NCBI GenBank assembly: GCA_001599975.1
Contig: BCIO01000003.1
Coordinates: 806,001-870,000 of the forward strand
Length of the DNA: 64,000 nt
DNA from: Cystobasidiopsis lactophilus
Lineage: Eukaryota > Basidiomycota > Agaricostilbomycetes > Agaricostilbales > Chionosphaeraceae
Direction: 5' to 3'
Below the pieces are notes generated by a model, which searched no databases, was not told the DNA's origin, and worked only from the letters and a program-made list of their open reading frames with translations. Shown here piece by piece: positions 3,178-6,148 of this stretch (within the stretch, counting starts at the first letter, position 1; each line of letters opens with the position of its first letter). The translations under genes and the position numbers were made by a program.

Positions 3178-3478
3178 AGACGCTCCCAAACTGTCGGCTT
3201 TTCCACGACCGCTTTCCATGCGCCGAATTAGTTCGAGTACACAACAAGATCGGAGTTGATAAGCGCACCAGCTCCGCTTCCTTAGAGATGAACGCCGCCA
3301 CCCGAACTGTGGGCCAGATTTCCTTGCTGAGCATCGTATTTCAGTTGCAGTGATGGCTGCTCATCTTTACTGCGGCATTCCCGAGGCCAATATAGATGCC
3401 AACCTGGTGAGCGTTCAGCATGACCTTTCGACACCTGCGAGGTTGAGCGCTGAACTCACGGGCACAACTAGATGGTCT
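3178..3478 (-). pseudogene. 3' fragment of the small membrane-protein gene of 5166-6148
   Basis: Read on the minus strand, this stretch matches about 5621-5990 on the plus strand. The match starts in the short fourth exon (AGACC[A/T]TCTA...) and covers the following intron, the fifth exon (VGIYIGLGNAAVK here, VGICIGLGTAVVK there), the next intron and part of the last exon. It lacks a segment of about 50 bp that the right copy has just before GAAGCGGAGCTGG. Exons 1-3, including the start codon, are missing, so it cannot encode the same protein. It lies downstream of the U2-like locus at 3615-3803 in the same relative order and orientation as the intact pair in the right arm. That makes it the truncated member of a duplicated block. 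Confidence 0.8.
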
Positions 3479-3614
3479 GACCGGTCGTGGAATACCATGT
3501 TTATACAGCGTCTGGAACAGTTTGCTCAATAGATTTGTAAAGAACACAGCAAGTGAGAAGCGGCGCAAAGTAAGTAGGAAGACGAGGCAAAAAAAAAAAC
3601 AGGAAAGGAGGAAG

Positions 3615-3803
3615 CCCTGTCAACGCGTAACGAGTCGTGTAAGGTTACGGTCAACGCACCTGGACCCAAGAGCAAGCTCTTGTAGTCAAGGAAGGGCTAC
3701 AAATATCAATAGTCGTTGTGATTGACACCGTAGCGTCAAGCCTAACCGATTAAAGCTAGGAAGAACAGTTACTACTTTTGATCTTAGCCTCTGACCAGAG
3801 GAT
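3615..3803 (-). ncRNA. Divergent, intronless U2 snRNA-like gene
   Basis: On the minus strand the sequence starts ATCCTCTGG, passes GGCTAAGATCAAAAGTAGTA, then ACTGTTCTTCCTAGCTTTAATCGG, and ends with a 3' region almost identical to the U2 locus at 4827-5066 (CGTTGACCGTAACCTTACAC...). It keeps the GUAGUA branch-site-recognition core but differs on both sides of it (CAAAAGUAGUAAC against CAAGUGUAGUAUC). There is no intron. Predicted stems are kept with different bases: stem I CCUCU/AGAGG, a stem-II hairpin UUGACGC/GUGUCAA, stem III CAAGAGC/GCUCUUG and stem IV CGUAAC/GUUACG. Spliced lengths are nearly equal (189 nt here, about 185 nt there). A canonical Sm site is not obvious; a weak AUUUGU lies in the expected region. 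It could be an active variant U2 or a recently silenced copy; the paired stem changes favour past selection. Confidence 0.72.
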
Positions 3804-4826
3804 GACTGCCTTTGTGTCGTGCACGGTACCATCTGAGCAACTTTTGGCCGAACCGCGGGCATATGGTCAAATCTGGTGACGTTGACGAATGCTGCGGCAA
3901 CGGTCGCCACCGCCATTGTGCTGCTGCCAAGTGCTCCCGATTAGCTGATTGAGCTCGACAACGTCTTTCTAGAGGGTAGCTGATGCACCAAACAAGGCGC
4001 CCAAGCAAGTGACTTGGTGGTGGCAAAGTCTACCTGAGTCACAGCTTTGTGAGCCGAATTGGCTTCCAGTGCCCCTAGAGGGCGGCGCGACGCAGCATTC
4101 CCTGGTACTGAGAGCATACCAGCTCGGAGAGGCAGTAGAGAAGAAAGAGTGGTCGAAAGTGCGCCAGCTGAAATGGAATTCACTGATCGCCGCACTCAAA
4201 TTTAATTGAGGAGCAGGAGGGGCATCTGAGCCTGCAGCACGGCCATGCTTTTGCAAAATGATCACGGAATCAGACAGAACGGCGCAGCGCAAAGCAGCCA
4301 AGGTTTACAACGAGAGAAGGCTGCATTCGGAGTCGGCGACGGCGGCATTTGTCACTGCCAGTCGCTACACGGTTCCTAGGACCGCAGACTCTCAGGAGTG
4401 CGGGCAGTCCTCTGATCCAGTCTTAGAGGCTCCAAAGAATCGTCACACAGACACACGGGACCAATGGTGTGCCCAAGTCGCGGATCGAGGACAAGAGGCC
4501 ACATTTCAATGATCTTGCGTGGATCATCAAGCACGGGGACAATATGCAGGCTCACTGGAGAAGCAAGGGTAGCACTTGAGTACTTCTGATAGGGATGAAA
4601 TCATGTTCTGCTGGGGGTTTGCCACCAAACAACCTGAAATTTTTCCATCGTTTTCCTTCATAGCCTCATTCTTTGATGCCATTAGGTTGGAAACGATTCT
4701 TGACGACATGAAAGCACGTAAAAGCCATCGCAGGCGTTCAAAAATGGACCGGGAAATGGGACCACAGGCCCCTCGATGAGGGCAAAGTTGCTCGGGTGGC
4801 GTGGCGGCCAGCGACATGCTCCGGTT
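3804..4826. other. Spacer between the two inverted U2 loci, no gene recognised
   Basis: About 1 kb separates the 5' ends of the two head-to-head U2 loci. Short open frames occur on both strands (for example 4258-4512 plus and 4527-4817 minus), but they show no domain, no plausible splice continuation and no amino-acid bias typical of genes here. It presumably holds the divergent snRNA promoters. I could not pick out a proximal or distal sequence element with confidence. Confidence 0.5.
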
Positions 4827-5066
4827 ATCCTCTCTGGCCTTTTGGCTTAGATCAAGTGTAGTATCGTGAGTTCTTTTGCTTCAAATGAGGTCAAAGATCA
4901 AGTGCTAAGCTTTCCCGCAGTGTTCTATTTAGCTTAATCGCTGAATTCGTTGCATCGCAACGTATTTCCGGTTAATTGATCTTTCAAGGCTGTCTTGTCT
5001 CTTGGGCTTGCTCAAGAACTTGACACGTTGACCGTAACCTTACACTACCCGTTATGCGTTGACAGG
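4827..5066 (+). ncRNA. U2 spliceosomal snRNA, split by an intron
   Basis: The 5' part matches U2 closely: ATCCTCTCTGGCCTTTTGGC then TTAGATCAAGTGTAGTATC, which is the U6-pairing region followed by the branch-site-recognition sequence. The universal continuation TGTTCT does not follow directly but appears 55 bp later, after a perfect GT...AG intron (4866-4920). Joined, the RNA reads GUGUAGUAUC|UGUUCUAUUUAGCUUAAUC, as expected of U2. Further on are a hairpin CGUUGC/GCAACG, a stem III CUUGGGC/GCUCAAG and a stem IV CGUAAC/GUUAUG with a loop resembling the U2B'' loop (UUACACUACC; the usual form is UUGCAGUACC). Spliced length is about 185 nt, normal for fungal U2. The 5' end is placed by analogy and the 3' end approximately. 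It must be spliced to make working U2, so the spliceosome is needed to make its own RNA. Confidence 0.93.
4866..4920 (+). other. Spliceosomal intron inside the U2 snRNA
   Basis: 55 bp, beginning GTGAGT and ending TTTCCCGCAG, with a possible branch site GTGCTAAG 14-20 bases before the 3' end. Size and ends match the mRNA introns of this window. It lies three bases after GUAGUA, so unspliced RNA keeps the branch-site-pairing core but loses the adjoining invariant sequence. Confidence 0.92.
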
Positions 5067-5165
5067 CCATCCATTATTATTTTTTTGCTCCTCGTCATAA
5101 TTTTTGTCCTCCTTCTTAAGGCTCCTAGTCTTTCGATTGCTTCGTCACTCTGCTGCGGATCCATC

Positions 5166-6148
5166 ATGTCTGCTGCCCCAGCCATCTCGCCCGAGCAAGT
5201 GCCAAAGGAAGGTAGAGTCGCCGCCCTCCAAAATCGGCCAGCGGTCCAAAAGCTCCAATACCTCGTCAAAGGTTGGGCCAGGCGCTCGTTTTGATGCTTC
5301 CATCATCAATTGAATCGAGAATGATCGGCAGGCGGAGCAGCACCTGGGGACTTTCGCTCCAAGAGCCTCCTCAAGACCACCCGCTATGTGCTGAAGTTCA
5401 TCTTGTGCGCTTCCTTCCCAAGCGCATCGTCGTGAACCTGTAATTGATCATTGACCTGAAGCTGGCGGCTGGTGCGATACGCCAAGTATGCGGCGATAGG
5501 AGCGGCCATCGCTGCCGTAGGAACCGGCGTGCTGGGCACGGCCATCAGCGGAGCAGGGATGCTGCTAGTGTGAGTGCCTCGTTTGTTTCACTCGAGCACA
5601 CGAGACTGAATCGCCTCTTCAGACCTTCTATACCCGTGAGCTCAGAGCTCGACTTCGTAGGCGTCGAAAGGTCATGCTGAATGCTCACCAGGTTGGGATA
5701 TGCATTGGCCTAGGGACAGCGGTAGTCAAGGTGAACAGTCATCACTGCGACTGAAGCACGACGCTCAGCAAGGAAGTCTGGCCCGCAGTTCGGGTGGCGG
5801 CATTCATCTCTAAGCAAGGCCTTCCGCGAAGGCGGCAGCGGCGACGCCCGCAAGGACGAGCGCTTGGAAGCGGAGCTGGTGCGCGTATCAACTCCGATCT
5901 GGTTGTGTACTCGAACTAATTTGGCGCATGGGCATGGAAGGCGGTCGTGGAAAAGCCGACAGTTTGGGAGCGTCTCTAGCTCAACTCCCAAGTCATCTAC
6001 TTCACTAGCTCGCTTGCTTATTGTCCTGACTACTCGTGATTGTACTGTCACTAGGAGACAAATTAATGCCTATTACACGGAGATGTCGCATAGCCCGTTT
6101 TGCCACCTTACTTCGGCAGGCCTAAGAGGGAGGGCATTCAGCTGCTAA
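5166..6148 (+). CDS. Small membrane protein of unknown function
   Basis: Not recognised as a named gene. I splice exons 5166-5271, 5332-5404, 5462-5569, 5623-5635 (13 nt), 5692-5730 and 5789 onward. The protein starts MSAAPAISPEQVPKEGRVAA, has a soluble N-terminus (FRSKSLLKTTRYVLKFIFWR), then two glycine/alanine-rich hydrophobic stretches (AAIGAAIAAVGTGVLGTAIS and LLVPSIPVGICIGLGTAVVK) and a charged tail FGWRHSSLSKAFREGGSGDA. It looks like a small integral membrane protein, possibly mitochondrial or ER. The 3' end is uncertain: the frame stays open to 6148, and an 84-nt segment at about 5879-5962 could be an in-frame intron (GTGCGC...GACAG with an ACTAAT branch). It lies 99 bp after U2. Its 3' half is repeated, inverted, at 3178-3478. 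Confidence 0.62.

Follow-up and report, generated by a model that had tools for sequence, protein, structure and literature searches.

The window analysed here, 64,000 nt of contig C3 (positions 806001 to 870000) from a genome of 22.1 Mb on 8 contigs, holds two strongly diverged genes for the U2 snRNA. The second of these, U2-2, is very probably a real U2 gene as judged from the DNA, since it combines kept stem pairing with an upstream element and with a 3′ element and Sm-type site. U2 is among the most conserved RNAs. We consider it reasonably probable that U2-2 encodes the RNA of an alternative U2 snRNP, which would act beside that of U2-1 in ordinary splicing and with relaxed gating of the branch site. 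The two genes are located as follows:

3617 to 3803, minus strand: U2-2, intronless divergent U2 snRNA gene (ends approximate; Rfam match 3611 to 3805)
4827 to 5062, plus strand: U2-1, U2 snRNA gene with standard core sequence (3′ end approximate; Rfam match 4827 to 5070)

Both genes were recognised by cmscan over the full U2 model (RF00004). U2-2 reached 68.7 bits on the minus strand, against a gathering score of 46, and U2-1 reached 80.6 bits on the plus strand, a value that includes its intron and also exceeds the gathering score. The inverted orientation of the two copies, as described in an earlier note on this DNA, is thus confirmed. A U2 family search of the 22.1-Mb genome, in which 45 of 176 candidates were scored, returned these two loci, and U2-2 used as a DNA query retrieved itself and 40 nt of the 3′ end of U2-1 (93% identity). 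The two RNAs are identical in 107 of 187 aligned columns; this similarity is unevenly distributed, with only 49 of 110 identical columns between 41 and 150. The known second branch-site RNA is U12 of the minor spliceosome (RF00007). U2-2 instead keeps GUAGUA and matches U2, and the genome gave no U12 match up to E 10 (42 of 284 candidates scored), so that an origin from U12 was rejected. Relatives of U2-2 were also sought in viral contigs, where no exact match to a 21-base core was found. By its gene style, its short introns and a Cas1-type acyltransferase, the genome would be that of a fungus, probably a basidiomycete.

The earlier note had stated that stems I, IIb and III of U2-2 are rewritten with their pairing kept. 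To follow this up, both RNAs were paired stem by stem, covering 39 pairs in stems IIa, IIb, III and IV. The stems of U2-2 are:

3788 to 3801, minus strand: stem I, refolded as CCUCU-GGUC-AGAGG in a fold of the 5′ 27 nt
3741 to 3760, minus strand: stem IIa, 2 double and 2 single compensatory changes
3722 to 3739, minus strand: stem IIb, 3 double and 1 single change, UACG loop
3659 to 3691, minus strand: stem III, 7 double changes (5 in the lower part, 2 in the upper) and 1 single change
3617 to 3655, minus strand: stem IV, near-identical to U2-1 (34 of the final 37 aligned columns the same)

On this manual alignment, which leans towards pairing, 38 of the 39 pairs are standard in U2-2 and 35 in U2-1; 12 of the latter 35 are changed on both sides in U2-2, 5 on one side, and none is lost. 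Random placement of an equal number of base changes gave a mean of 17.8 standard pairs and a maximum of 29 in 200,000 trials, and when the changed positions were fixed and only the bases were random, 35 pairs were likewise never reached. The statement therefore holds for stems IIb and III, including the example given for stem III (CAAGAGC/GCUCUUG in place of CUUGGGC/GCUCAAG), and can be extended to stem IIa, whereas stem I is refolded and not compensated pair by pair. This refolding takes up bases needed by U2/U6 helix II, and we counted it against a role of U2-2 in an alternative snRNP. The independent cmscan alignment placed stem III likewise and stem IIb off by one in U2-2; its marks indicate 3 non-standard pairs in U2-2 versus 5 in U2-1, part of whose stem IIa is undisplayed. 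Folding and covariation against U2-1 had been suggested as a check. The covariation goes beyond chance, whereas the folding energy of the whole U2-2 RNA is weak evidence (z −1.75; 11 of 200 shuffles equally good) and was also counted against.

U2-2 carries control elements of the kind found at the other snRNA genes:

3827 to 3874, minus strand: upstream (PSE-like) element of U2-2 (TTGCT at 3840 to 3836, −37 from the gene start)
4754 to 4801, plus strand: upstream element of U2-1 (leave-one-out score 29.1)
3582 to 3601, minus strand: 3′ element of U2-2 (T-run then GCC), shared with U1, U2-1, U4-A, U4-B and U5
5074 to 5093, plus strand: 3′ element of U2-1 (training member)
3700 to 3706, minus strand: putative Sm-like site AUAUUUG of U2-2, between stems IIb and III

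The upstream element consists of an ACCAC-like block followed by TTGCT and is common to U1 (2 loci), U2-1, U4-A, U4-B and four U6 loci. In the other snRNA genes TTGCT lies at −38 to −40. Because this anchor was picked after it had been seen in U2-2, an exhaustive scan of the window served as the test. The matrix was derived from seven genes (U1, U2-1, U4-A, U4-B, U6 and two divergent U6), leaving out U2-2, the near copies U1b and U6b, and U5, which is without TTGCT at that distance. Among 127,906 positions on both strands, the training member U2-1 scored 43.4 bits, U2-2 16.0 bits and the next site 10.7, which makes U2-2 the best non-training site and the second overall. The 3′ element (T-run then GC) follows six of six Sm-class genes examined, namely U1, U2-1, U2-2, U4-A, U4-B and U5. 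In a scan of 127,962 positions with a matrix made without U2-2, only U2-1 and one unrelated site outranked the element of U2-2, which came third and is therefore less decisive. The Sm-like pattern AU(A/C)UU(U/C) was likewise found in all six of the Sm-class genes examined, U2-2 included. In this genome the same PSE-like element stands at the same distance before Sm-class genes (U1, U2, U4) and U6 genes, and U5 is without it at its Rfam start; the sites are 4754 to 4801 (plus strand) and 3874 to 3827 (minus strand) in the window, and positions upstream of loci L003, L004, L006 to L009, L016 and L019.

Taken together, the compensatory pairs, the Sm site, the 3′ element and a correctly spaced upstream element give good support from the sequence to the earlier view that U2-2 is not a dead copy. 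It might still be a recently dead paralogue, whose long period of selection ended with a loss of function so recent that structure and control elements still appear good. Such a history would fit the substitution of core bases that are normally conserved (positions 31, 32 and 39, and the loop of stem I) and the upstream score of 16.0, which is below most of the others (11.5 to 31.7 for the seven training genes in leave-one-out scoring). We regard it as rather improbable: no broken element was seen, 38 of 39 stem pairs are standard, and the Sm and 3′ elements are both present. For a working U2-2 we infer expression, most likely by transcription from its own snRNA-type promoter, and the RNA would then bind Sm proteins and form an alternative U2 snRNP.

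The region of U2-2 that would contact the branch site comprises:

3763 to 3783, minus strand: branchpoint-interacting stem-loop region (GUAGUA at 3775 to 3770)
3777, 3776 and 3769, minus strand: changed bases 31, 32 and 39 (human numbering), read from the sequence

As had been noted before, GUAGUA is retained and the bases that flank it are altered, from CAAGUGUAGUAUC in U2-1 to CAAAAGUAGUAAC in U2-2. The bases for U2/U6 helix I (GCU, GAUC) are unchanged, with GGCUAAGAUC kept. According to a published account, the top pairs of the stem-loop are U32:A38 and G31:U39 (PMC13167188). By this description the changes G31A, U32A and U39A abolish both pairs and leave A32/A38 and A31/A39 in U2-2. The altered branch-site contacts proposed earlier are thus found at the sequence level, where both top pairs are gone; the functional consequence is a predicted one. 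We treat the missing pairs as a feature of a variant U2, because all other U2 features tested were found in U2-2. Mutations that destabilise the stem-loop are described in a review as abrogating the requirement for the Prp5 ATPase (PMC11482624). For U2-2, which is without the top two pairs, we infer use in splicing with relaxed gating, in that branch sites would be engaged with less Prp5-type remodelling. The IIc pairing is weaker in U2-2 than in U2-1 (−2.9 versus −5.3 kcal/mol), and the IIa/IIc switch of U2-2 looks tilted to IIa. In neither copy does the isolated stem-loop fold stably, and the predicted opening does not appear in the energies, since these are near equal (+2.2 and +2.4); this, too, was counted against the alternative snRNP.

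The same changes could be imagined in a U2-derived RNA that works outside splicing, with stem I and the branch loop, which both serve in splicing, altered and the protein-binding stems and the Sm site kept. However, GUAGUA, GCU and GAUC are unchanged, and such an RNA would not need them; we consider this extremely improbable. If U2-2 acts in splicing, it would by pairing favour U over A at intron position −6 and U directly after the branch motif. The best made-up branch site was U-flanked for U2-2 (−8.3) and A-flanked for U2-1 (−10.4).

Introns were mined from 277,900 bases as pattern-matched candidates, with reversed sequence as a control. The looser set comprised 235 candidates versus 102 in the control, with A at −6 at a frequency of 0.32 versus 0.18. 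The stricter set comprised 139 versus 38 candidates; among these pattern matches, A at −6 was present in 33 of 139 versus 6 of 38 (Fisher p 0.38) and T at −6 in 38 of 139 versus 11 of 38 (p 0.84). The branch motif of the mined introns is of the CTGAC type. Within the pattern matches from these 277,900 bases, no separate intron class suited to U2-2 was seen, and this was counted against the alternative snRNP as well.

U2-1 differs from U2-2 by a predicted intron, as already reported in the earlier note:

4866 to 4920, plus strand: predicted spliceosomal intron in U2-1 (GTGAGT...GCAG, 55 nt, splits AUC^UGUUCU)

It starts right after GUAGUAUC. U2-2 is intronless and could therefore be produced without prior splicing. 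It may be that U2-2 is a backup or bootstrap U2, which does the same job as U2-1 in a splicing-independent manner and whose branch-loop changes are tolerated drift. This would agree with the interruption of U2-1 in its branch-pairing region, which makes the function of U2-1 dependent on splicing, with the retention of GUAGUA and of the U6-pairing bases in U2-2, and with the lack of a U2-2-specific class among the mined introns. We think it unlikely, though with a chance worth keeping in mind: the changes are concentrated on the two stem-loop pairs and not scattered over the 5′ core, where 21 of 25 aligned columns around the stem-loop are identical in the two RNAs, and U2-2 pairs no better with the U2-1 intron than U2-1 does (−5.4 versus −7.7). 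An aid of U2-2 in the splicing of this intron was rejected for the same absence of an advantage. In the 3′ half of the U2-1 intron, AGATCAAGTG of exon 1 recurs (shuffling P 0.005, or 0.04 when the whole intron is considered), and the 5′ half of the intron is similar to the start of exon 2 (P 0.10). A tandem gene duplication may be the origin of this intron, the data being suggestive only.

Other spliceosomal RNAs and proteins encoded in the genome bear on whether U2-2, as an alternative U2, has partners of its own. The following loci are referred to:

L003, 1501 to 1626, and L004, 1501 to 1628, both minus strand: the two U4 genes
L006 and L007, 1501 to 1602, and L008, 1501 to 1600, plus strand: standard and variant U6
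L016, 1539 to 1716, plus strand: divergent U1-like gene (26.3 bits, below the cut-off), found via the shared upstream element
L019, 1539 to its end, plus strand: second U1-like locus, which shares its first 71 bases with L016 before the locus ends

The U4 genes score 70.8 and 63.8 bits. Four U6 genes were found, two of them identical over 102 nt (88.3 bits), one a variant (64) and a further one (48.3), together with one U5, a loop pattern likewise giving a single match. For U1, the genome gave no Rfam match up to E 10. A U1 pattern found three loci, which gave no U1 match up to E 1, and the pattern combined with the upstream element found six, one of which (L016) has a weak U1 match below the cut-off (E 0.0029). 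L016 and L019 share 95 nt, promoter and 5′ end included, and are called U1 on the basis of 5′ end, promoter and 3′ element. The fourth U6 (L009, 1501 to 1609, minus strand; C1:643015-643123) has about 7 extra nt in the region of the internal stem-loop, is without a T-run terminator (TTCATTTATTG), has a fully paired 3′ hairpin, and is perhaps a decaying copy. The variant U6 lies about 30 kb away from it in the opposite orientation, and the two share 90% identity over 556 nt.

The stem II duplex of U4-A has an energy of −23.8 with standard U6 and −21.5 with the variant, and that of U4-B −24.8 and −13.5, respectively. By these values U4-A is the fitting partner of the variant U6 and is suited to standard U6 as well. 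Stem II of the variant U6 (GCACAAAGAU) pairs fully with U4-A (AUCUUUGUGC) and is mismatched with U4-B (AUCCUUGUGC). A set-specific U2/U6 helix II was not found, as U2-2 reached −13.8 with standard U6 and −11.1 with the variant; for U2-1 the values were −12.7 and −14.8. Prp8 was found at one locus in the genome, and SF3B1 as one complete gene (C5:1291067) plus one N-terminal fragment. This fragment (L044, 5529 to 6582, minus strand; C5 near 998318) was rejected as a second SF3B1, being a truncated copy (96% over 702 nt and 95% over 155 nt) that is N-terminal only, with nothing after.

The presence of two U4 and four U6 genes, with a variant U6 that goes well with U4-A and poorly with U4-B, would fit a partly separate snRNA set of U2-2, U4-A and the variant U6, a nascent second spliceosome sharing U5 and Prp8. 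We hold this to be very improbable, since U4-A is also good with standard U6, the variant U6 goes better with U2-1 than with U2-2, and the searches gave a single Prp8 and a single complete SF3B1 gene. The chance is similarly slender for a second spliceosome in the making in which U2-2, U4-A and the variant U6 co-evolve, U5 and Prp8 are shared, and branch-site gating is relaxed. As U2-2 has no preference for the variant U6, and Prp8 and the complete SF3B1 were each found once, a second spliceosome is not claimed.

Some information on the history of the U2 pair comes from its flanks:

3178 to 3462, minus strand: arm of an inverted duplication, downstream of U2-2
5633 to 5975, plus strand: matching arm, downstream of U2-1

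The arms match as complementary blocks of 186 nt (85%), 66 nt (95%) and 44 nt (98%). Both U2 genes sit within this inverted duplication, and while the arms are 85 to 98% alike, the U2 pair is far more divergent. This higher similarity of the flanks suggests that gene conversion took place or that the arms were duplicated later. Gene conversion may account for some of the resemblance of U2-1 to U2-2, and this was counted against an alternative snRNP. It is also possible that U2-2 changed fast while keeping its structure.

Compared to the U2 family (RF00004), U2-2 has the same stems IIa, IIb, III and IV, GUAGUA, U6-pairing bases and Sm-like site, but differs in the refolded stem I, in A31, A32 and A39, and in the weaker IIc. 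Developmental U2 isoforms are described for Drosophila, mouse, silk moth, sea urchin and Dictyostelium in PMC4291461. As here, these genomes have more than one U2 sequence; the present pair agrees in 107 of 187 columns and belongs to a compact fungus-like genome. A fungal U2 gene with an mRNA-type intron, like that of U2-1, is attributed to Rhodotorula hasegawae by the title of Takahashi et al. 1993, as cited in PMC2586383. Among the titles and abstract openings listed, mostly outside the subscription literature, none described a fungus with a pair of intron-bearing and intronless U2 genes.

If our view of U2-2 is true, the two genes, one of them changed at the very place where the loop displays the branch-pairing bases, constitute a natural experiment on how U2 finds the branch site and on the reasons for the conservation of its loop. 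The pair would also show how an intron can be carried in the active region of a U2 gene when an intronless paralogue is available. With its divergent U4 and U6 paralogues, the genome further allows one to ask, in a testable way, how a second set of splicing RNAs might arise.
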